Part shown: one piece after another, positions 1,102 through 15,546 of the stretch
Numbering within the stretch: position 1 is the stretch's first letter
Layout of the letters: each line of letters begins with the position of its first letter
From: a virus
Length of the DNA: 21,299 nucleotides
Direction: 5' to 3' (one strand)
IMG/VR virus record: IMGVR_UViG_3300033978_000435
Location: 1-21,299 of that record
Made by a program: the position numbers and the translations under genes
Notes under the pieces: model-generated
Seen by the model: the letters and a program-made list of their open reading frames with translations, nothing else
The model's database searches: none
What the model was told of the DNA's origin: nothing

Positions 1102-3404
1102 TACACGCCTCCTCTGCTCTTTCCGACCTGCGACACCACCACGGACATCCGCTCGACCGACCACGGCTTTCCGTCCGAGGCAACGGTAATGTAGATCGCC
1201 TCCGAGCGAATGCGGCACTTCTTCGCGGTGTTTCGTCCCGGAACGAGCGATCCAATCTCGGTGACGCTCGCCTCGGGGAATGACGCTCCCGACACCAAAG
1301 CGTTGTCGCGGATGTCCGGGGCGACCGGGTCTTGGGTAACGGTGATCATCGCGCCGTCAGGAGACCCCTCATCGGGCGTGATCTGCTCGTACTCGATTTG
1401 GTATACGTTCGGCCCTGTCGAGATCACGCGCTCGATCACCCAGCACGGAGCCACCGAGGCGGCGACATCCCACCGGATGATCCAATCGCCCGGGCCGTTG
1501 TACACGCGGTTGATGCCGGCCACGAATGGATCGGCCTGCGTGTACTGTCCGAACGGCCTAGCCGCGAATCGCCCATCGACGAAGTCGGGACTTGGAGGGG
1601 TAGCCCCGGGGTCTCCCCCGTCATACAGCGGCGCAGAACCCGTGGCTGCGGCGTTCCCCCCGTCGATCACAAGCGGATTGAGGTTGATCACGAACAGGGA
1701 GTCGGTCTGAACGCCAAGCGCGCTCTGCGCCGTGTCACCGGTGGAGACCGACACGATCGGGGCTTCGCTCCGGTCGGTGAAGTTCGACGGAACCTCGTAC
1801 TTGTCATCGGCAAGGTCGATGCGCACCTCGCTGAGCATCGCGCGGTACGGCAACTGACCGATGATCGGGCCGAAGGTCAGGCTGCTCCTTACGAACTGCC
1901 GACGCTGATCCTCGTCGGTCATCTCCTCATTCCACCCATCGACACCGATCGGATACGAGCGGTCGATGATGCTGATGGACTTTGCCCCACCGAGGAACAG
2001 CCGTCCGGAATCGGTTCGCGATGTGCCGACAAAGCATGCGGAGGTCGGGGCGTAGATGTTCGGGTCTGCGAACCGCTGCGGCCAAAACGAATCGGTCTTG
2101 AGGTCGTAGAACAGGTGCAGGCTAGCGTTCTCCACGCCGTTCACGGCCAGCAGAATCCACACGCCTTCCCGGTCGGGGTCGTAGCACAAGCACGGAAACA
2201 CATTTCCGGCATCGATACCACCTAACAGAGACGAGACCGCTTCGCCAACATCAATTGGTTTTGCTGTTGATTCAGAGGTCAGTCCGCCTTCGGTTGTCTG
2301 AGTCTTTGTGTCAGCGCCGGCCCCGCTTCCGCCTTCCGTGGTAATCGCGCGGAGCGTTCCGCCTGCGAGCGGACTTGTCCCGCCGATCGCGGGAGTTCCG
2401 AAGTCGAGCCGGAGGAAGAACGAGTCCAGCCGTCCTGCGCTCACGCGATTGGCACGGTTGAAGTTGAAGTCGTTGGCGTTGATGAAGTACAGCCCATCGC
2501 TCGCAAGGATGAACGACCCCTTCTCCTGCGATTGGCAGAACGCTCGCTGCCCCGTGATTCCAATCGACTTGGTCAGGCTGACAATCTGCGCGTTGGGATC
2601 GAACTCGGGATCGCTGGTCAGAAACGAGAACGAGTTCGTGCATGCGAACATCAGGCCGGTCTGCGCGAATGGGAAGATCGCGACGATGGGGTCGCCCAGC
2701 GTTCCATAGACATCGGTGATTGCGCCACCGATTCCCGAGACAGCACCGATGAAGTCAGTACCTGTCCAGCCATCATCAGACCCGTTTCCGGCGGCGGCGA
2801 CAACCTTGTCGGGAGCGCACGCAAACCACACAGTCGGGGTCTTCTTATACCCAGCGAGAACCACACGAGCGCCCCACCGGCAGATGAGCGTTGCGCGGTT
2901 TCCCGCCGGAGATGACAAAGGATCGGTGTGATACGGCCCTTTGTGGTTTCCGGTTGTCGCACCCCAAACCGAAACGCCTGTCGTGGTGTCGGTCAGAAGA
3001 ACCTTGACATAATGCGTGCCATCGACGAAGTAGAAGTACTCGTTGAACTGCACGCCCTCGACAAGTCCTGTCGCGTTCAACGGCGCAGTTGTTTGACCGG
3101 GAAATTCCGTGGCGGTCGCCGTCAGATTGCTCCGTGGGTCTGCGTAGTAGACCTTTCCGGCGCGGACGAAGATGATCTTCTCGACGAGCGCGCCAGCGAT
3201 GAACGCGCGAAAAGTCCCCATGAACTGCACGCTGCCGAGGTTGTACAACTGCGTGCCGTTGCGCGTGCTGATGCGCGTGCGCCCGTTCCAAATGTCCGAA
3301 GGCATCATGTTGACGCAGGACGGTGTCATGCCCGGAGGGATCGCAGAGAACTGCGATTGCTCCGTGAAGCCCTTGAACGGAAGTTGGACGGGCATGTGGG
3401 TCAT
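1101..3404 (-). CDS. Tail nozzle / tail tubular protein B-like
   Basis: A 767-aa protein, a length near that of podovirus nozzle proteins (T7 gp12 is about 790 aa). The ATG overlaps the fibre-gene stop as ATGA. A second possible ATG lies three codons in. The N-terminus has a pattern seen in nozzle and stabilisation proteins: PGMTPSCVNMMPSDIWNGR, then a repeated-beta region with TRNGTQLYNLGS, and a VRAGKVYYAD blade. The rest is beta-rich with many YFVDG- and WILLAVNG-type strands that suggest a propeller-like fold. The C-terminus ends with a segment typical of virion surface proteins (ITVASDGKPWSVERMSV). No signal peptide or catalytic motif is present. Its position after capsid, adaptor and fibre genes agrees with a tail part. 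Family-level assignment is moderate. Confidence 0.6.
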   Translation of the reverse strand: MTHMPVQLPFKGFTEQSQFSAIPPGMTPSCVNMMPSDIWNGRTRISTRNGTQLYNLGSVQFMGTFRAFIAGALVEKIIFVRAGKVYYADPRSNLTATATEFPGQTTAPLNATGLVEGVQFNEYFYFVDGTHYVKVLLTDTTTGVSVWGATTGNHKGPYHTDPLSSPAGNRATLICRWGARVVLAGYKKTPTVWFACAPDKVVAAAGNGSDDGWTGTDFIGAVSGIGGAITDVYGTLGDPIVAIFPFAQTGLMFACTNSFSFLTSDPEFDPNAQIVSLTKSIGITGQRAFCQSQEKGSFILASDGLYFINANDFNFNRANRVSAGRLDSFFLRLDFGTPAIGGTSPLAGGTLRAITTEGGSGAGADTKTQTTEGGLTSESTAKPIDVGEAVSSLLGGIDAGNVFPCLCYDPDREGVWILLAVNGVENASLHLFYDLKTDSFWPQRFADPNIYAPTSACFVGTSRTDSGRLFLGGAKSISIIDRSYPIGVDGWNEEMTDEDQRRQFVRSSLTFGPIIGQLPYRAMLSEVRIDLADDKYEVPSNFTDRSEAPIVSVSTGDTAQSALGVQTDSLFVINLNPLVIDGGNAAATGSAPLYDGGDPGATPPSPDFVDGRFAARPFGQYTQADPFVAGINRVYNGPGDWIIRWDVAASVAPCWVIERVISTGPNVYQIEYEQITPDEGSPDGAMITVTQDPVAPDIRDNALVSGASFPEASVTEIGSLVPGRNTAKKCRIRSEAIYITVASDGKPWSVERMSVVVSQVGKSRGGV

Positions 3405-4381
3405 GGGAACTTACGCAACGCAAAGATGATGACACCGTCGATGTCTGTTCCCGACCCAAGAGTCCATGCTGAAGACGCGGACGAATATGAAATGGCCGTT
3501 GTGTTTTTCCAGAGGTTGTTTCCGCCTGTTCTGTCAATCTGCAATGCAAACCCATACCAATTTCCAAATGGGTTCCCTCCAACCTTGGCGGTAGCAACCT
3601 GATTCGACGCTGTATCGAAGTTTGTAACCTCCCATGTGATGTTGCCGTCGAGAGACGTGATGTTCTGCGTCCCCGGGCCAACAAACTGAACGATTGCAAT
3701 ACTGATTGCGCTCATGCGAGCAAGATCATCCATTCGCATGACGTGTGAGTGCAACGCCGCCGCAAGCAATGGGCCGTTTGTCACCGACAGTAGGTCAACT
3801 ACCGTAGCGTCGCCCGTCACCGTAGCGTCGCCCGTCACCGTAGCGTTGCCATCGACCGTGGCGTTCCTCTGCACCTCGATGTCGCGCACCTTTGCATCGA
3901 CACCTTCGGCGTTGTCAACTCCCCACAGGTTCTGCGGTGTCCACGGTCTCCAAGGCGGTGTCTGCGTCGAGTCGTAGATTCGCGCGTACGACTTTTGCGG
4001 CTGCGTGCCGTCACCGTCAGTCCACAGATGTTGGACAACGACCGATCCGAATGGAAGCACCATCAGGTTGATGCCACCGTCAGCGGCCTTGATGTCGATC
4101 GGAGCAGCAGGAAGCACGCCGCCCGTAATCGACGCGATGCCGGCGTACCGGTACAAACCCATCACACGCATCGACGGATCGTCGATATCGACATTCGGAG
4201 ATGCAAAGTACGGCAGCGTTCCGCCAAGCCACGGGAGCGCCGGCCAGTTGCTCGACCCATCGCCGATCTTGATCTGCTTCAGCGTGGTGTCGAGTCCGAA
4301 CTCGCCTGCGGCAAGAGTTGGCGGCGTTCCGGCCGCCCAGTTGGTGGACGTGTCGCGGCGGACTTGAATCTTCGCGGTCAT
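3401..4381 (-). CDS. Tail fibre / receptor-binding protein with Mtd-like N-terminal domain
   Basis: A 326-aa protein with a GAGGAG site before its ATG, 3 nt after the lipoprotein stop. Residues about 5-50 match the N-terminal domain of Mtd-type fibres: IQVRRDTSTNWAAG, then TLAAGEFGLDT, KQIKIGDGSSNWPALPW. In known phages this domain anchors trimeric fibres to the tail. Residues about 170-195 form four hexapeptide repeats (ATVTGD-like) that probably make a short beta-helical or triple-spiral shaft. The rest ends in an Asn/Trp/Ser-rich C-terminal domain with NPFGNWYGFALQ and a final LRKFP. The C-terminus is the likely receptor-binding part. No reverse transcriptase or template repeat is seen, so this is not evidence for a diversity-generating retroelement. 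Confidence 0.75.
   Translation of the reverse strand: MTAKIQVRRDTSTNWAAGTPPTLAAGEFGLDTTLKQIKIGDGSSNWPALPWLGGTLPYFASPNVDIDDPSMRVMGLYRYAGIASITGGVLPAAPIDIKAADGGINLMVLPFGSVVVQHLWTDGDGTQPQKSYARIYDSTQTPPWRPWTPQNLWGVDNAEGVDAKVRDIEVQRNATVDGNATVTGDATVTGDATVVDLLSVTNGPLLAAALHSHVMRMDDLARMSAISIAIVQFVGPGTQNITSLDGNITWEVTNFDTASNQVATAKVGGNPFGNWYGFALQIDRTGGNNLWKNTTAISYSSASSAWTLGSGTDIDGVIIFALRKFP
3801..3872 (-). repeat. Four 18-bp tandem units inside the fibre gene
   Basis: The unit accgtagcgtcgcccgtc occurs twice exactly (3801-3818, 3819-3836) and then in two diverged copies (3837-3854, 3855-3872). It encodes an A-T-V-T-G-D hexapeptide in the fibre frame, so it is a coding repeat. Copy number could vary by slippage and change shaft length. 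Confidence 0.85.
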
Positions 4382-5988: not shown

Positions 5989-6540
5989 TCACGCGCCGCC
6001 AGTTGCGAACTGGTAGCCGTTGATCAGCACGGTCATCAGCGATGCAGTCACGGGCGCACCCGTGGTGACCGTGGTGAAGCCGATCGCCATCGGTGCGCCC
6101 TGCGCCGCCACAGCGGCCACACCGAGCGTCGAAACGAGAACGCCAGCACCGTTCGTAAGAACGGTGACTCCGGCGGTGATCGGAGATGTCGAGAGAGTCG
6201 TGACCTTTGCTTGGCAAAGGCCGGCAACGCAAATCTTGACGCGATTGCCTGCGGTGGCGGCTTCAAGAACCACGCCGAAGATGCCACCCTTTCCGGTCTG
6301 CGTGGTCGAAGCACTTCCAGCCGCGCCGGCGACCGACAGAACCACGACATTGAAGGGGTTCTTCTTGTCATCGAGGTCGTTGATCTTCGTGAGGTCGGTG
6401 TAGGTGGTGTTCGACCCCGAAAGGTCGAACATGACGAGATCGCCAACGGCAAGGTTCACCGCTGCGATCGGGGCCACGCAAACCTGATGCGGCGTGAGGC
6501 CGCCGAGGTTTCCTGCGGGAGTGATGAGTCCGGGAATCAT
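5989..6540 (-). CDS. Capsid decoration / head-stabilising protein (putative)
   Basis: A 183-aa protein with AAGGAGG before its ATG. It follows the major capsid gene by 36 bp. The sequence is Gly/Ala/Thr/Val-rich and predicted all-beta: MIPGLITPAGNLGG, VGDLVMFDLSG, GGIFGVVLEAATAGNRV, then a repeat-like end with GAPMAIGFTTVTTGAPV. The GDLVMFD...GKGGIFGVVLEAA pattern is like DUF2190-type capsid cement proteins that bind the outer capsid. It has no transmembrane segment or enzyme motif. Placement right after the capsid gene is the strongest support. Confidence 0.6.
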   Translation of the reverse strand: MIPGLITPAGNLGGLTPHQVCVAPIAAVNLAVGDLVMFDLSGSNTTYTDLTKINDLDDKKNPFNVVVLSVAGAAGSASTTQTGKGGIFGVVLEAATAGNRVKICVAGLCQAKVTTLSTSPITAGVTVLTNGAGVLVSTLGVAAVAAQGAPMAIGFTTVTTGAPVTASLMTVLINGYQFATGGA

Positions 6541-7926: not shown

Positions 7927-8793
7927 TTATCGGGAAAGGACTCTGCGGACATCGTCGCGCGTTCCGCCGCCAAGCAAGATGTCGAGCGCGCGATCGTCCT
8001 GATCGACCTCGCGAACCGTGCGCGCCGGCGGCTTGCCGACAGTCGGTTTCGCTAGGTTCCTCGGGTCGGCGCGCCTTGGCTCGCCTGCCTTCATGCGGAA
8101 CGCTTCTTGGACGATATCCGAGATGGATTCAAACTGACCGGGATTCTCGCGCCCGATCGTCGCTGCCATATTTGTGATCTCGTCGAGAGACGGCGCTTTG
8201 CTGCCGTACATCGACGCGAGACGGTCGTATGCGCTCCGCGTCTCGTACTTGATCTCCATCGCACGAGCGCGCTCTTGAAACGAGTTCTCAAGGCGCTCGG
8301 CGAGGTTGCGGAGAGGCTTTGCGGCCTCGTCCCCGAAGATTTCCCCGAACTCGGAAAGCGGATCGGCATCGGCCTCACCGTCACCCGACTGCGTGGATGC
8401 CTTCGGATTCTCAGTCTTCGCAGCATCGGGCTTCTTGTCGTTGCCCTTTGCCGCTCCGAACGAGTCCACATCGGCCTGCCTCTTCGCGGCCTTCAAGCCC
8501 CACTCCTTCACCTTGGAAGGGTCGGACTTGAGGGACGCGATGATGTCGGCCGGAACGCCGTCCCGCTGCAATGCCTTCAGCGCCCGATCGAAGTCGGGGT
8601 CGTTCGCTGGAGCAGACGGTTCGGACGTGCGATTGACCTGCTGCGGCGCAGGCTCGTCGATGCCGAGGAGACGATCGAGGACAGCGTCCTCGCTTTCGGA
8701 GTTGTCCGCCTCAACGGCGGCTTCCGCAGCGAGTTGCTGCACAGGATTGACGATCTCATCGTCAGGCTTGGCTGGTACTTCGGGTTCTGACAT
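7927..8793 (-). CDS. Scaffolding protein
   Basis: A 288-aa protein. The ATG at 8793 is chosen because AAAAGGAC lies upstream and the previous stop is 1 nt away; the longer frame runs back into the neighbour. It is acidic and polar: MSEPEVPAKPDDEIVNP, then an Ala/Glu-rich region, QRDGVPADIIASLKSDPSK, a disordered Lys/Glu/Asp/Ser middle, a helical section with EKPLRNLAERLENSFQERA-like character, and a short basic C-terminus (VRRVLSR) that could bind the coat protein. Composition, size and position between portal and capsid match internal scaffolds, which help procapsid assembly and then leave. No protease motif is visible. Confidence 0.8.
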   Translation of the reverse strand: MSEPEVPAKPDDEIVNPVQQLAAEAAVEADNSESEDAVLDRLLGIDEPAPQQVNRTSEPSAPANDPDFDRALKALQRDGVPADIIASLKSDPSKVKEWGLKAAKRQADVDSFGAAKGNDKKPDAAKTENPKASTQSGDGEADADPLSEFGEIFGDEAAKPLRNLAERLENSFQERARAMEIKYETRSAYDRLASMYGSKAPSLDEITNMAATIGRENPGQFESISDIVQEAFRMKAGEPRRADPRNLAKPTVGKPPARTVREVDQDDRALDILLGGGTRDDVRRVLSR

Positions 8794-8794
8794 C

Positions 8795-9085
8795 TCAGTC
8801 CTTTTCGAAACCGTGCCGCGCCATGACATCGCGTTCATGGCGCTTCGACATAATGATGGGCTTGCCCTGACGATTGGTCTTGCATCCATGAAGTCCGCGC
8901 GGAAGTGCCGTGCTGACATAGGGATACTGGTGACGGTTCGTTCCCGGATCGACCTGCAACGTGCTGGCAATTCGGGTAAGGGTTACCCCATCGTGGGTGA
9001 TAATACTGCCAATCGACGGCGCTTCACTCATGCGCATGGCGATTTCGACAACATTTCCGTTGGGGTCGAGGAACTCGTAGAGCAT
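8795..9085 (-). CDS. FmdB-like small protein lacking the zinc cysteines
   Basis: A 96-aa protein. It starts MLYEFLDPNGNVVEIAMRM, then APSIGSIITHDGVTLTRIAS, and ends with IIMSKRHERDVMARHGFEKD. The layout follows FmdB-family zinc-ribbon proteins that occur beside phage portal genes (YEY..C..CG, then a second CPxCG, then R/K-rich end). Here both CxxC knuckles are absent and only one cysteine (in GLHGCK) remains, so zinc binding by the usual site is unlikely. Stop and start spacing with portal (1 nt) and scaffold (1 nt) shows it is part of the head operon. Function unknown; the family link is my reading of pattern, not a search. Confidence 0.55.
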   Translation of the reverse strand: MLYEFLDPNGNVVEIAMRMSEAPSIGSIITHDGVTLTRIASTLQVDPGTNRHQYPYVSTALPRGLHGCKTNRQGKPIIMSKRHERDVMARHGFEKD

Positions 9086-9086
9086 T

Positions 9087-10865
9087 TCACATCGCCCTGT
9101 TCGCGGCGGCTTGGAGGCCGGCTAGGCTGCTTGCGGGTATCGGACTCGGCTCGCCCATTGCGTTGGTCGGTGGGCCGCTGGCCGGCCCCGGCATGCCGCC
9201 GACTGCCGCCGCCTGCGATGCCTGCGCCATCTGCTGCATGGCGTTCTGATCGATCATGTCGGGCAAGTGGGGCATGTTGAGCGCGTCACCGACCACCGAC
9301 AGGATTTCGCGCCACTTGATGAACGGCATCGTCATCATGCCCTGCGCCACGCTGGTGGTGATCTGAAGCAGTTCCATCGCGCGCTTCTGCACGAGCGCCT
9401 CGGACACGCGCTCCATGCTGTACGCATCGACCGCGACCTCAAGGTCTTCCCAGCCCGGCATCTGAACGCCGCCGGTGAACTTGGGGTTTGCCTCCAGCAG
9501 CGCCTCCGCGCCCTCGCGCCCGAGCGGGAACGCCACCCGGTCATCGTGCCACATGAACCACAACACCGATCGGGCGATGTCATCCACCGCCTCTTGGAAC
9601 TGGCGCTTGAGGTGGGCCATGCGCATCGTCGCGCTCGACTCGGCCACGGCGACCTCGGTCGCGGTCGCGCTGCCTTGGATGTTGCCGCGCATCGCGTCAT
9701 GGATGCCCGACACCCGGTCGAGCCTGTCCTGCGCGATCTGCGAATACTGCACCTGCTGCTGCGTGATGCCGCCGACCTCAAGGTTGACTACCTTCTCCTT
9801 GTCGAGGTTCTCAGAGACGATCACGAAGTCGTGCGGCTTGTCCTTCAAGTCCTGCGCCAACTTGCTGTTCCGCGAATCAACCATGATCAGCCGCTTGTAC
9901 GCCGCCGCGCTTGCGCGCAGGCTGATCAGGTGCGCGTTGAGGTCTTGGCTCTGCGATTGGATCGCGATCATCGGCGACAGCGGGTACGGATCGTCGGGGA
10001 CGGTGTACGCGCCGAAGACGGTGTACGGGCCGTTTCTCGGCCCGAAGTACGGTCGCGGCGCGCGGATGAACCCGTCCCACTTGGACTGACCGTTCCGGCC
10101 CTTGACGATCGTGAAGATCGTTCCGTTGATCAGTCCCGGCCCGGCCAGTTCGTCGGCAATCTCGGCCTCCGCGATGTCGGCCTCCGGAACCCAAATCTCG
10201 TAGACCGCGAACTCCTTGCGATCCTCAAGATCGCGGCCGTTATCATCGCGAACCTTGTCAATGTCGGTTCCCGAAGGGATCGCAAAGATCGCGTCGATGT
10301 CCCAACTCTCGTCGGTCTTCGCCATCGCAAGAAGGTCGTTCTTGTCCATCGCGTAGCAATGGCCCATGAACCTCGCGTCCTCGACGCTCGTCGCGGCGGG
10401 GTCGATGAAGAACCGATCGGGCGAGATGCGGTAGACGCGCGGAAGGTAAGGCTCTTTGCCGTCAACCTGCCGCGCCTCCGGCCTCGGCTCGCTCACCGTC
10501 AGCGCCACGCCGTAGGTGAAGATCATGTCCACCGCGACACGCTCCAGCGTGCGGCGCAACTTGACGATGCGCGCCCACCGGTTCACGGCGATCTGAAGCC
10601 GTTTCCCAAGCATCAGGTCGAGCATCGGCTCGCCCAACTTCACCCGAAACTTAGGCGTGTCGTGGATGATGCGCGGCAGCACCAGCGACACATACTCGTG
10701 GCCGAAGTTCTCGGGATCGTCGGTGTCGGGATCGTTGCGATCGTCGCGATATCCCGGGCCGTGGTACTTTTCGACCATCGTCCGCAGCGATGACAGGTGA
10801 GCGTCACGGAACTTTTCCGCGCTCTCGATCTCTCGCCGCATCGCCATGAACGACATATCGAGCAT
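9087..10865 (-). CDS. Portal protein
   Basis: A 592-aa protein. Its ATG overlaps the previous TGA (TGATG). The length fits podovirus-type portals. It has the N-terminal helix region (RREIESAEKFRDAHLSSLR), a DPDTDDPENFGHEYVSLVLPRI stretch, a clip/stem-like middle, and the typical late signature IAQDRLDRVSGIHDAMRGN followed by QGSATATEVAVAESSATMR and a long helix. The Pro/Gly/Met-rich C-terminus (residues about 555-592) is likely disordered. It would form the dodecameric ring for DNA passage and bind terminase and adaptor. Position next to scaffold supports the call. Confidence 0.85.
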   Translation of the reverse strand: MLDMSFMAMRREIESAEKFRDAHLSSLRTMVEKYHGPGYRDDRNDPDTDDPENFGHEYVSLVLPRIIHDTPKFRVKLGEPMLDLMLGKRLQIAVNRWARIVKLRRTLERVAVDMIFTYGVALTVSEPRPEARQVDGKEPYLPRVYRISPDRFFIDPAATSVEDARFMGHCYAMDKNDLLAMAKTDESWDIDAIFAIPSGTDIDKVRDDNGRDLEDRKEFAVYEIWVPEADIAEAEIADELAGPGLINGTIFTIVKGRNGQSKWDGFIRAPRPYFGPRNGPYTVFGAYTVPDDPYPLSPMIAIQSQSQDLNAHLISLRASAAAYKRLIMVDSRNSKLAQDLKDKPHDFVIVSENLDKEKVVNLEVGGITQQQVQYSQIAQDRLDRVSGIHDAMRGNIQGSATATEVAVAESSATMRMAHLKRQFQEAVDDIARSVLWFMWHDDRVAFPLGREGAEALLEANPKFTGGVQMPGWEDLEVAVDAYSMERVSEALVQKRAMELLQITTSVAQGMMTMPFIKWREILSVVGDALNMPHLPDMIDQNAMQQMAQASQAAAVGGMPGPASGPPTNAMGEPSPIPASSLAGLQAAANRAM

Positions 10866-11071: not shown

Positions 11072-11338
11072 CTAGCCCTCTCTCAAAGTGTTTGGAAACA
11101 TGATCGGCTGCTTGAACTCTATCGAGTCTACCACTACCGCGCCGATCTGATGCGCGGGTTCACTCGGAACCTCAAACGCCCACGATCCGTTCGTGGTCTC
11201 TCGCGGCAACGCCCACCGCATCATCTTTGCCCTTTCGTGAGCGTCGTTCGACAACGGACATCCGATCAACGCAGACACCTCCGCCTCCGCCTGCAATGCG
11301 AGAGCCTCGGTTGGGAAGATGTACCACGACTGCGTCAT
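11072..11338 (-). CDS. Conserved-type small phage protein, 88 aa, unknown
   Basis: ATG right after the TAG of the LamG-like gene, with CGAGG upstream. The product begins MTQSWYIFPTEALALQAEAE, contains SNDAHERAKMMRWALPRETT and GSWAFEVPSEP, and has no transmembrane segment. A WYIF start, an Ala-rich helix, and a RWA-PRET-G-W-F-P core are seen in small phage proteins beside tail-fibre genes. It may be a fibre chaperone or a small virion protein, but I cannot name a family. Its position after a LamG-like fibre-type gene suggests a partner role. Confidence 0.6.
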   Translation of the reverse strand: MTQSWYIFPTEALALQAEAEVSALIGCPLSNDAHERAKMMRWALPRETTNGSWAFEVPSEPAHQIGAVVVDSIEFKQPIMFPNTLREG

Positions 11339-12259
11339 CTACAACCTCGGAGCAAAGTTCTTGAAAGGATGAGCCGATGGAAGACCGCTTTGCACTCCCC
11401 ACTTCCACGCAAGGTATCCCTCGATCCTTTCCCACACCGATTGAGTAACAGCGTTCGCGTTCCTCACCACAATGAACTCACCAAATGTAGTTGCTGAATG
11501 AAGAGCCGGCGATCCGTTGTCTCCGTCAGCGCCAAGGCACAGACCGTTGAGTTCTGCTACTGCTGTTAATCCAACCTGCGAATCCACAGTAGACCCGTAT
11601 GACCTGCGTAAACAGAACAACGCTCCATTGAATACGGTTCCGTTGAGCCACAACCCGCTTGGATTTTTTGTCAAGCCAGCGGAACTGTAGACGGTGTAGT
11701 CTGCGCCAAATGTTTCTATTGAACCACCAAGCCCGCCTACGCCGCCAATGATCCCTACAGGATTTGATCCACCACCGTAAACCCAGTAGTCAAACGTGTA
11801 GGTTGCGTTTGTGCCGCCGTTGCTTCGCGTATACCCGCTCCACGGCCTTATACTGGTTGTCGGGAATCCCAAATACGGAGGAGGCTTGCAGATGTAGAAC
11901 ACGGCGAACGGCTGGGGTTCGCCGTTTGGGCTTTGCGGCCAGTTTGAATAGTCATTCGGATTTGACCGCAGCGTGTCGTTCGATCCGTCGAACACAACCC
12001 CCGGCTTTCCGTTCATCGCAGTCGCGTTGTACTGGGGTTGATTTGCACCAACAGTCTGCTCAAGGTCGTTGCCAAGACCGCTTTTGTCCGTCCAGTATGA
12101 AACAGCCGGAAGTCCACCAAGCGGAGGAAGAATCGTCGGCGTGTCCGTCGCGTCGTACCACGCAAGAAGATCAGATTCGATTCTTTTTGGAGTCCACAGT
12201 TGAACCCGGAGCGCAACGCTCGCGTTTGCCTTTCTGAAATTGAACCGACTTCGCGGCAT
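11339..12259 (-). CDS. LamG/concanavalin-like surface or fibre protein
   Basis: A 306-aa protein with GAGGAAG before its ATG. It begins MPRSRFNFRKANASVALR, nearly the same N-terminus as the 46-aa ORF at 13685-13825. The rest fits a LamG/concanavalin A-like beta sandwich: LLAWYDATDT, VSYWTDKSGLGNDLEQ, PQYNATAMNGKPGVVFDG, and the C-terminal signature RIEGYLAWKWGVQSGLP with HPFK. These domains often bind sugars and occur on virion surface and adsorption proteins. Location between terminase and portal genes is unusual for a receptor-binding protein, so it may be a capsid-surface carbohydrate-binding protein. No signal peptide. Confidence 0.7.
   Translation of the reverse strand: MPRSRFNFRKANASVALRVQLWTPKRIESDLLAWYDATDTPTILPPLGGLPAVSYWTDKSGLGNDLEQTVGANQPQYNATAMNGKPGVVFDGSNDTLRSNPNDYSNWPQSPNGEPQPFAVFYICKPPPYLGFPTTSIRPWSGYTRSNGGTNATYTFDYWVYGGGSNPVGIIGGVGGLGGSIETFGADYTVYSSAGLTKNPSGLWLNGTVFNGALFCLRRSYGSTVDSQVGLTAVAELNGLCLGADGDNGSPALHSATTFGEFIVVRNANAVTQSVWERIEGYLAWKWGVQSGLPSAHPFKNFAPRL
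12206..12247 (-). repeat. Coding repeat copy B (RFNFRKANASVALR)
   Basis: This 42-bp stretch encodes residues 5-18 of the LamG-like protein and matches 13772-13813 in peptide exactly and in DNA at 36 of 42 positions. All six differences are in third codon positions and are silent. Confidence 0.85.
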
Positions 12260-12260
12260 G

Positions 12261-12482
12261 TTACTTCCTCGATCGGTTTGAAGATCGGCTCGTCACGCGC
12301 AGGTTTGACTTCCGGTTGTCGCGCGGGTCGCCGTTCTTGTGGTCGATGTCCTTGCCGTCGCCCTTGCGAACGCGGCCCGAACGCTCGGCCTCACGTCGCG
12401 CGCGGTTGCGGGATGCCCTGTCCTTCTTCGCGGAAGTCGAGGACTGATGCTTGAGGTACTCGTCTCGGTAGTTGCGCGGCAT
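12261..12482 (-). CDS. Minimal HNH-type endonuclease-like protein
   Basis: A 73-aa protein. Start chosen at the ATG 7 nt after the upstream stop (12490); a longer frame to 12521 overlaps that gene. Sequence: MPRNYRDEYLKHQSS, a Lys/Arg-rich helix (KKDRASRNRARREAERSGR), then KGDGKDIDHKNGDPRDNRK followed by SNLRV. The D-H-x-N-G, D-N, N-L-R spacing is the HNH core (first His in IDHKNG, later Asn in DNRKSN). The usual final His or long N-terminal zinc half is missing, so activity may be weak or lost. Some phages carry HNH proteins that help terminase cut. Here it sits between structural genes. It ends 1 nt before the LamG-like gene. Confidence 0.65.
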   Translation of the reverse strand: MPRNYRDEYLKHQSSTSAKKDRASRNRARREAERSGRVRKGDGKDIDHKNGDPRDNRKSNLRVTSRSSNRSRK

Positions 12483-12489
12483 GGCCTGC

Positions 12490-13674
12490 TCAGATGTAGG
12501 AGATCGCGATTTTGTGTTCACCAGCCGTCACGGCTCCCGTGTCGTTGTCGGCAGCGCCCGTGGTCATCGCGATCGCGATTCCCGTTGCGAACCGTAGTCC
12601 GACATTGAAGTCCTGCGCCACGGTTCCGTTCGCGGGGATCGGTATGACCAGCACGGGGACATCGGTCGCGAGTACGGGCGCAGTCGCCTTGTTGTACAAC
12701 TTGAGGTATCGAAGCGCCCCGTTGGTGTTGTTCACGCTGAACCCGTAGAGCGTTCCGGCTGAACCCTTGGCCGCGACTAGGTTGTTGTCGCCCGTACTGT
12801 TGCGGAACAGGACGGAGGGCGTGACCGGCGTTCCTTCGTTCGCCGTGACCGTTCCCGTCACGGTGGTAGTCGGGGCCGAGACAACCACGACATTCATCGC
12901 GTTGCCAGCGACCGAGTTGCCGCGCCCCGCCGTGATCTCGGCTGTCAGTTCGGCGTAGTCCTGCACCGAGAGGTACTGGATCGTCGCGTTCGTCGGTGAC
13001 GCGGGTGCGCTGCTGTTCGTCCAGCGGAGCCGAACCTTGTACACCGCGTTCGGGTCGGGAATCTGCTGGTGGCGGCGGTACGAGTTCGCGCGTCCCGTGG
13101 CCGCGTCGAGCGTGCCGCCGTGGAACCACGCCTCGTCGGCGAACGCCTCCAGTTCGTACACGCCCGATCCTGCGGTGGTTGGGATCGCGGACTGCGCCGA
13201 CCGCAGGCGCGCAAGACCCCCGTTCTGCACCTCGTAGATTCCCTGCGTTGCGTTGCTGGTTCCCTCAAACGCCCACGCGAGGGTGTGCTGTCCGTTGGGA
13301 GCAAGCGTGACGGGATCGACGCTGATCGCCTCGACGAAAAAGGTTCCGCCCGCAATCCGCTGGCTCAGGGTCAAGCCGATGCTCACGCGGAACGGGATTG
13401 TGAATGTCTCCACGCTCGTGACCATCGTGGTCGATCCGTTCGTCGTTCCGTTCGCCATCACCAGCGCGCCGCTTGAGTTCGACGCGGAGCCGCCCGTGCC
13501 GACATCCGTCACCCACTTCGTCGCGTCAGGAGACCCGTTGACCGTGAACGAGTCGCGCCACTTCTTCTGCACGCTCTTCATCTTGATCATGTCATCCTGC
13601 GAGTCGTACCCCGGGTTCAACACCATGTTCACGGTGTTCCCGTTCGCGTCCTTCACAGGGATAAGTGTCGGCAT
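12490..13674 (-). CDS. Virion surface-type beta protein, unknown role
   Basis: A 394-aa protein that follows a 46-aa ORF by 10 bp. The first 35 residues (MPTLIPVKDANGNTVNMVL, then NPGYDSQDDMIKMKSVQKK) are polar. The middle is Ser/Thr/Asn/Gly-rich beta (VETFTIPFRVSIGLTLSQR; HTLAWAFEGTSNATQ). The C-terminal 130 residues resemble a small beta domain seen in phage head-fibre and tail proteins (GTPVTPSVLFRNSTGDNN, LYGFSVNNTNGALRYLKLY, IPIPANGTVAQDFNVGLRF). There is no enzymatic motif. The last domain pattern, with KLYN and VPIPANG, is often found in virion decoration or fibre proteins. Virion placement is inferred. Confidence 0.6.
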   Translation of the reverse strand: MPTLIPVKDANGNTVNMVLNPGYDSQDDMIKMKSVQKKWRDSFTVNGSPDATKWVTDVGTGGSASNSSGALVMANGTTNGSTTMVTSVETFTIPFRVSIGLTLSQRIAGGTFFVEAISVDPVTLAPNGQHTLAWAFEGTSNATQGIYEVQNGGLARLRSAQSAIPTTAGSGVYELEAFADEAWFHGGTLDAATGRANSYRRHQQIPDPNAVYKVRLRWTNSSAPASPTNATIQYLSVQDYAELTAEITAGRGNSVAGNAMNVVVVSAPTTTVTGTVTANEGTPVTPSVLFRNSTGDNNLVAAKGSAGTLYGFSVNNTNGALRYLKLYNKATAPVLATDVPVLVIPIPANGTVAQDFNVGLRFATGIAIAMTTGAADNDTGAVTAGEHKIAISYI

Positions 13675-13684
13675 GTCGGTTCTC

Positions 13685-13825
13685 TCAGAATGGGTCTTGG
13701 ATGAACATCAGGTACATCGAGTTCGACACGGCGGAGAAGTCCAGCATCAACTGCCCTTCCACGTCCCTGATCCGAAGCGCAACGCTTGCGTTCGCCTTTC
13801 TAAAGTTGAATCGCCCTTTTGCCAT
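13685..13825 (-). CDS. 46-aa ORF with N-terminus shared with the LamG-like protein
   Basis: ATG overlaps the large-terminase stop (TGATG) and GAGG lies upstream in the terminase end. The product starts MAKGRFNFRKANASVALR and ends with a hydrophobic stretch, DFSAVSNSMYLMFIQDPF. It may be a stand-alone structural peptide using the same N-terminal module as the LamG-like protein, or the remnant of a longer fibre gene that lost its C-terminal domain. Silent differences between the two copies favour a working short protein. No known family was recognised. Confidence 0.6.
   Translation of the reverse strand: MAKGRFNFRKANASVALRIRDVEGQLMLDFSAVSNSMYLMFIQDPF
13772..13813 (-). repeat. Coding repeat copy A (RFNFRKANASVALR)
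   Basis: Encodes residues 5-18 of the 46-aa ORF. See the copy at 12206-12247. Retention of the peptide with only silent DNA change shows selection on the protein, not a recent duplication. Confidence 0.85.
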
Positions 13826-15546
13826 CAGCGGAACACCTCGTGATGCTTTAGGATCACTCCAAGCGCCTCGCTCGGCAACGCCGCCTCGCGAACCTCCGCG
13901 CTCACGCCCTCTTCGCAAAGCATCAGCGCGCCCGCAAGCGCGATGACCCGGTCGCCGTGCGACTCGCGCGCGCCGCTCGCCATGTCGCGCACGCTCGCCG
14001 CCTCGATCGACCCGTCATCAAGGATCACATAATCCAACATCTCGCGCAAGGTGTCCTCGCCCGGAATCCGCACATTGCCCTGACTGATCGCGCGGGACAA
14101 CGCCCCCAGCAGCGTCCGCTTCGCGCGCCGGCTGCTGTTCCACCCGATCCTCACCGTCAGACGCTCCGTGGTCGTTCCCACCATCCGCTGACGGTACACC
14201 GACGAGTACCCGATCCGCTGGAAGTCGTGGTGCAGCGCCGCGCCCGGGCCGTTTACCTCCCACCCCACCAGCGGAAGCCGCCGCCCACGGTACACCGTCA
14301 TCGCCACCTCCACCATCTCCTGCGCCAAGTCGTGCGGAGGACAGTTCGGGTCGGCAAACTCGGCCACCACCTCCCGGTTGTCCGCGTCCATCACGCACAC
14401 CGCCGCGTTCGCGCTCCCCGTTCCGTAGGACGGGTCGGCGAACATCACATACTCCCGCTCCGTCTCCCCGTGCCGCCACACCCGCCACCGACCGTTCGGG
14501 TCCGCCACGAACCGGCCGCGCAGCAACTCGCAACGCTCGCCCGGCATCGCGTTCTCGTTCATGTGCGCCGTCACCACCCCCGGCGTGAAGAAGTTCGAAC
14601 CGCTGCCCACCTCGGTCGCAAACACATTCTGCGCCATGTCCACCGTGTCGCGCCGCTTCAACTGCTCCCCAAGCCACGGTGTCCACACGAACTCAGACCC
14701 CGCTACCCCCGTCACCCGCCCGTCCACATCCACCCGGGTCTCCGCGTTCGCCCCCTTCAGCGGATGCTCCGTGTACAGCAACTCCACCAGCCTCGGATCG
14801 CCCTGCGTCCGCGCCATCCGCACCAGCGTCGAGTACTGCGTCCCGCTCCCCAAGGGGGTACACACCGCGATCCGGCACGCGCTCGCGTCCGCCGCCGACC
14901 GCCACGCCGCCTCCGCCTCCCCCATCGACGCAAACTCGTCGAACAGGATCAGCGTGCGCCGGCCGCCTCGGCCCACATGCGCCGTCGATGCCTGTCCCGC
15001 AATCGTCGCGCCCGAGACCGGGTTCCGAAGCATCATGTGCTGCCGCGTGTCGCTGCCGCGCCGCAGCAACTCGTCCGCCGCGCCCGGCAACAGCCACGGA
15101 GGCTGGCTCTGCAATAGGTAGTCCACCTTCCACATCAGCGAGTCCGGGTCGCCCGGGCGATCCACGCCGTCCTCCACGCGGCTCACCAGCAGGCTCTGCC
15201 ACCCCTTGAACAGCCACCCCCACGAGGCCACCGCCGCCAGCAGCCACGATGCACCCATGTCGCGGCTCTTCCGAACCACCACATCCCGGCCGTCCGACAC
15301 CGCCGCGTTCACCTCCTGCACCGCGCGCTCCTGACACGGCCACAGCACGAACGGACGGTTCGGCTTCACGCTCGGAACCTCGCGCCCCGACACCGGATTC
15401 ACCTCCTTCGGGGCGTATGTCCACCCCGTCAGACGGAGCCACAGGCAGATGTCCTCCGCAAACGCGGCACGAAAGTCCGCCTGCGTCGATGGGCTGTCCA
15501 CCGTTGCGTCCAAGAACTTCTTCCGAAGTCGTGCAATTTCAGACAT
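13825..15546 (-). CDS. terL: Terminase large subunit (ATPase and nuclease)
   Basis: A 573-aa protein with both terminase parts. The Walker A-like motif is near residues 92-100 (RKSRDMGAS). Walker B is near 198-206 (LILFDEFA, with the catalytic Glu). The RNase H-like nuclease has Asp371 in FADPSYG, Glu430 in VGWEVNGPG, and a late Asp532 in SHGDRVIALAGA. It would drive ATP-dependent DNA packaging at the portal and cut concatemers. The ATG at 15546 is used; its ribosome binding site is weak (CCGGA). The gene stops with a 1-nt overlap with the 46-aa ORF. It lies downstream of small terminase, separated by 224 bp of non-coding DNA, which is more than the rest of the operon allows. Confidence 0.95.
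   Translation of the reverse strand: MSEIARLRKKFLDATVDSPSTQADFRAAFAEDICLWLRLTGWTYAPKEVNPVSGREVPSVKPNRPFVLWPCQERAVQEVNAAVSDGRDVVVRKSRDMGASWLLAAVASWGWLFKGWQSLLVSRVEDGVDRPGDPDSLMWKVDYLLQSQPPWLLPGAADELLRRGSDTRQHMMLRNPVSGATIAGQASTAHVGRGGRRTLILFDEFASMGEAEAAWRSAADASACRIAVCTPLGSGTQYSTLVRMARTQGDPRLVELLYTEHPLKGANAETRVDVDGRVTGVAGSEFVWTPWLGEQLKRRDTVDMAQNVFATEVGSGSNFFTPGVVTAHMNENAMPGERCELLRGRFVADPNGRWRVWRHGETEREYVMFADPSYGTGSANAAVCVMDADNREVVAEFADPNCPPHDLAQEMVEVAMTVYRGRRLPLVGWEVNGPGAALHHDFQRIGYSSVYRQRMVGTTTERLTVRIGWNSSRRAKRTLLGALSRAISQGNVRIPGEDTLREMLDYVILDDGSIEAASVRDMASGARESHGDRVIALAGALMLCEEGVSAEVREAALPSEALGVILKHHEVFR

Follow-up and report, generated by a model that had tools for sequence, protein, structure and literature searches.

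Podovirus receptor-binding proteins carry short N-terminal docking peptides, such as the hepta- and undecapeptide of K1-5/SP6 and the MALxxLV peptide of KP34, which are conserved within a phage group, precede exchangeable bodies and attach proteins to a component of the particle (PMC6872550). In T4, the capsid targeting sequence (CTS) is a conserved stretch common to diverse internal proteins, which it directs into the scaffold core (PMC3012670). The capsid decoration proteins Hoc, pb10, gp12 and phi29 gp8.5 bind sugars or host surfaces, and some of these accessory carbohydrate-binding proteins have N-terminal capsid-contact parts (PMC7602432). No paper worded 'identical N-termini' for phage structural proteins was found in the literature. 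Here, a comparable arrangement is described from the window, the whole stretch of 21,299 nucleotides that was analysed (positions 1 to 21,299 of IMG/VR record IMGVR_UViG_3300033978_000435), where one peptide, RFNFRKANASVALR, is found close to the N-terminus of two otherwise different proteins.

The genes concerned are encoded on the minus strand in the order terminase, p46, p394, HNH protein, LamG, p88 and portal. The terminase large subunit (13825..15546, phrog_2) is immediately upstream of p46 (13685..13825), a mini-protein of 46 aa whose ATG overlaps the terminase stop codon (TGATG). Directly downstream of p46 is p394 (12490..13674), modelled as a ConA/GH16-like jelly roll, followed by a small HNH_3-type protein (12261..12482; PF13392, 4e-9), a LamG-like protein of 306 aa (LamG; 11339..12259), the small protein p88 (11072..11338) and an SU10-like portal protein (9087..10865, PF23899). 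Given the SU10-like portal and adaptor, the window phage is probably short-tailed. Further along the same strand lies p183 (5989..6540), a cement-type protein that adjoins the major head protein. Two other ORFs of the window may be recorded here. The protein at 3401-4381 combines a major tropism determinant N-terminal domain (PF18454) with VTGDAT repeats, and its C-terminus appears to be variable, since in most relatives only the first ~140-210 residues are conserved. At 7927-9085, a 347-aa ORF of the scaffold region overlaps a 96-aa ORF; its match switches frames near residue 60 in L015, L019 and L021, so its true start is probably later.

Translation of the ORFs placed RFNFRKANASVALR at residues 5-18 of both p46 (13772..13813, minus strand) and LamG (12206..12247, minus strand), with MPRS- and MAKG- as the preceding residues in the two proteins. 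The likeness of the two copies breaks off sharply at either end. Codon comparison of the 42-bp copies gave six differing bases out of 42, each a silent change at a third codon position, as had been reported in an earlier note made from the window's letters; the same note had the peptide starting both ORFs, which is right insofar as it is N-terminal in both, but it begins at residue 5. By Nei-Gojobori counting the copies have a dS of ~1.1 and a dN of 0, in agreement with the note's description of an old repeat with a fixed peptide, and six random substitutions in a tag copy would all turn out silent with a chance of 8e-5 to 3e-4. At 36/42, nucleotide identity does not exceed what two independent codings with this phage's codon usage would give (P = 0.12), which argues that the copies are old; a rare AGA codon is common to both. 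The tag peptide is held at the protein level while its silent sites are saturated. In L026, a near-identical twin contig, the tag occurs on these two ORFs only, within the covering 16.9 kb locus. Across 2.9 million viral contigs, this near-identical twin was the only one in which a DNA search detected the exact peptide, and tblastn with the LamG N-terminus in annotated phages returned chance matches only.

LamG matched phrog_10356, a family of virion structural proteins, at 1.6e-27, and no Pfam LamG model was matched; this profile match and a modelled ConA-like fold together place it in the phrog_10356 family. In the model, residues 1-20 have a pLDDT of ~46-55 and confidence then rises above 90, so the tag is consistent with a flexible stretch of N-terminus lying outside the folded domain, with the ConA-like lectin-fold body taking up residues 22-306. 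The nearest structural match was the tailspike of the cyanopodophage Pan3 (PDB 9vyh; Z 18.1 over 236 residues, rmsd 6.6, 14% identity), a name that favours tail placement. LamG also matched sialidase and clostridial neurotoxin binding domains in structure, which reflects the common ConA-like fold only and is no indication of such a function. For p394, the nearest folds were GH16-type glucanases. Neither p46 nor p394 had a Pfam or PHROG match, and profile searches of PDB sequences returned nothing useful. Relatives of p394 came from 78 loci in viruses and 12 in bacterial genomes; those in L208-L215, from Planctomycetota genome bins, have neighbours that look like genes for head-tail connectors and tails, which hints at prophages with related structural proteins and at possible hosts.

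Relatives of the locus were gathered by portal (24 loci), by LamG, by p394 (from viral and bacterial genomes) and by p46. The family of the window phage, called class A, comprises the window with its twin L026, L019/L020 and L115/L100; L101, L044, L043 and L110 make up class B. In class B, LamG, p88, p46 and p394 alone match, and the window's remaining virion genes have no detectable counterpart; p88 was found in L019 of class A and L044 of class B. By these comparisons, LamG, p46 and p394 form a module found in two phage families between which no other virion genes in common could be detected. The contigs are fragments, and LamG and p46 are present together in only four distinct genomes: the window, L101, L044 and L043.

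In L115/L100, L043, L044, L101 and L110, a p46 homologue immediately precedes the p394 homologue, and these p46 homologues have in common a C-terminal motif, LDFSxxxNSMYxxF. This motif belongs to a conserved C-terminal half (residues 21-46, DVEGQLMLDFSAVSNSMYLMFIQDPF; 13688..13765, minus strand), delimited by homologue comparison and unrelated to LamG. Between L043 and L044, whose p46 proteins are related to each other, dN/dS is 0.17; for the C-terminal half, window versus L115, it is 0.26. Judged by its homologues, p46 is a real gene, conserved and under purifying selection. The suggestion that the 46-aa ORF might carry the tag alone does not hold, since its homologues keep a C-terminus of their own, and the lack of a conserved frame, which the earlier note had named, together with a lack of peptides in mass spectrometry, as a ground for abandoning its reading, was not what was found. 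No match to p46 was obtained by tblastn in annotated phages. Basic mini-ORFs with a weaker resemblance occupy the p46 position in Microcystis phage Mwe-JY08 (L116) and in L047/L087; for the mini-ORFs upstream of p394 in L047 and L116/L233, where no LamG was found nearby, the N-terminus was on no other ORF in the sequence scanned.

A common N-terminus on LamG and p46 was also seen in class B. The pairs are MARSRRPRS/MARARRPRS in L101, MGRGRRPRI/MARARRPRF in L044 and MGRGRRPRT/MGRSRRSRI in L043, and no other ORF of these contigs carries the sequence convincingly; in each genome the tag thus has two carriers whose bodies are unrelated. All four within-genome LamG/p46 pairs are more alike than composition-matched shuffles (P 1.5e-4 or less), whereas the tag pairs tested between the window and class B do not. 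Within class A, the window tag is recognisable as FRKAQAASALR in the LamG of L019 and as RFIRKSVGSAAVR in the p46 of L115. The body of LamG is 75% identical between the window and L101, with 5/21 residues of the tag in common; between L044 and L101 the body is only 38% identical and the tag matches at 16/28. In these alignments, the N-terminus tracks the phage family rather than the protein body. Class B tags match across genomes too (permutation rank 2/24), so genome-specific matching of tags is seen, in sequence, between the two families and not within class B.

The explanation that we consider probable is that RFNFRKANASVALR is a short N-terminal docking peptide, fixing two structural proteins to one partner in the phage's particle. 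LamG would be attached to the particle through its tag, and p46 would have two parts, the tag and a separate conserved C-terminal element tied to its neighbour p394, so that p46 may bridge p394 to the partner of the tag. That partner would belong to the virion, with the capsid as its likeliest place and the tail as the alternative; the capsid is favoured by the cement-domain analogy only, and the Pan3 tailspike match points the other way. The earlier note had proposed a tag for attaching virion proteins, and this is still the best explanation; class B repeats the arrangement with a tag sequence of its own. Counting against it are the small number of genomes with both genes, two of which (L043 and L044) have related p46 proteins, the tag matches across genomes within class B, and the mini-ORFs of L047 and L116/L233, whose N-terminus has no second carrier in the sequence scanned.

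The cement-domain analogy comes from sister phages, in which proteins of ~640 aa lie between terminase and portal (L010 2739-4676, L017 3693-5621, L015 1517-3400). These have a p183-related N-domain followed by repeated GGxxN motifs with a fibre-like look, and Phage_cement_2 was matched in 13/16 members of the p183 family (best 8.9e-10), with no direct match for the window's own copy of p183. With a cement-type N-domain on these proteins, cargo at the tag locus appears to be put on the particle via its N-terminus. Three tandem p183-related ORFs were also noted after the major head protein in L016 (14342-16141). Also in favour of docking, in another phage group (L143 and L144) an N-terminus of the form MHRxRxW..P.WR..NR(I/V)L is common to a 146-aa protein and to a neighbouring protein, the body of the latter differing completely between the two phages (427 versus 1109 aa); it is unrelated to the window tag (positions 2864 and 3837 in L143, 431 and 1404 in L144). 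LamG-like classes of other phages have highly conserved N-terminal extensions before a lectin-like body, MRRWRLNSGYCGNTDQRRTK- or MPRGxxxxDEAxLQ- (L132, L135, L138, L141-L143, L145, L160, L161, L177, L189; L148, L153, L159, L164, L167, L170, L172, L185, L201, L203), and these N-termini were on no other ORF in the loci scanned.

Set against the described systems, the window tag resembles the K1-5/SP6 and KP34 peptides in being a short N-terminal peptide that is conserved within a phage group while the bodies behind it differ (PMC6872550). Those peptides attach proteins to a component of the particle, as the window tag would. Unlike them, it stands on a lectin-fold protein and a 46-aa mini-protein, its sequence is unrelated, its genes lie between terminase and portal, and no T4gp10-like adaptor was identified. 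With the T4 CTS it has in common that a single short N-terminal sequence heads several proteins of one phage that differ in the rest of their length (PMC3012670); the CTS directs proteins into the scaffold core, whereas the lectin-fold cargo of the window suggests the outside. As with Hoc, pb10, gp12 and gp8.5, accessory carbohydrate-binding proteins would be involved (PMC7602432), but attachment in the window phage would use a peptide of ~14-25 residues, at a capsid location that is inferred only. By these analogies, the window tag is best read as one more version of the docking peptides described in phages, set apart by a new sequence, by where its genes lie and by having a mini-protein among its carriers.

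Instead of plugging into a capsid or tail, LamG and p46, perhaps with p394, could bind each other through their common N-terminus. Sharing was seen only where LamG and p46 co-occur and only on these two ORFs, and the two genes are adjacent in L043 and L101, all of which would suit such mutual binding. We nevertheless consider it unlikely, as the LamG of L019 keeps its version of the tag in a contig where no p46 was found, and the exchange of bodies behind a tag that stays with its phage family speaks for a resident partner.

No better placed is the proposal that the proteins are carried inside the head and that the N-terminus signals their packaging or binds nucleic acid, after the manner of the T4 CTS. 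Class B tags are very Arg-rich (MARARRPRSVAAMRARR), which would suit a nucleic-acid-binding role as well and counts against docking, and the internal proteins of T4 are likewise diverse, with the conserved CTS alone in common (PMC3012670). Both large bodies, however, are modelled as ConA-like lectin folds, which are more typical of surface binding, and the window tag, unlike that of class B, is only moderately basic; this proposal, too, is improbable. The T4 CTS is removed by the prohead protease.

It is far less probable still, and largely refuted, that the repeat acts at the level of DNA or RNA, for instance in starting translation or as a recombination site, or is the outcome of recent gene conversion. 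Its place at the start of two genes and its sharp ends would be expected of an element of this kind, but the window copies have saturated silent sites, and the identical tag residues of class B are mostly coded differently (10/13, 8/12 and 9/11 with different codons; nucleotide identity down to 25/72) and the bases upstream of the two tags are unrelated. The silent divergence in the window and the differing codons of class B together make recent gene conversion, which the earlier note had named as able to undo its reading, unlikely. That p46 is a functionless remnant, broken off the 5' end of a duplicate LamG gene, as its LamG-like opening and length of only 46 aa might suggest, is scarcely credible and largely refuted, given a C-terminus unrelated to LamG, homologues that keep this C-terminus and its position, and dN/dS values of 0.17-0.26.

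Within the docking-peptide explanation, a more specific and tentative proposal, which we think possible but would not favour, is that p46 acts as a micro-adaptor. Its tag would occupy the virion site of LamG and its LDFSxxxNSMY element would recruit p394, bringing two lectin-fold proteins in via one socket, and the tag would have been replaced to fit a new particle when the module moved to an unrelated phage family. If true, this would be a natural plug-and-socket system, in which ~14 to 25 residues suffice to place foreign proteins on a phage and a peptide is kept identical on two proteins despite silent saturation and matched anew after a move from one phage family to another. Matching N-termini on neighbouring but unrelated ORFs would then be a simple signature by which virion-docked proteins could be found, along with very small structural genes that are missed by annotation.
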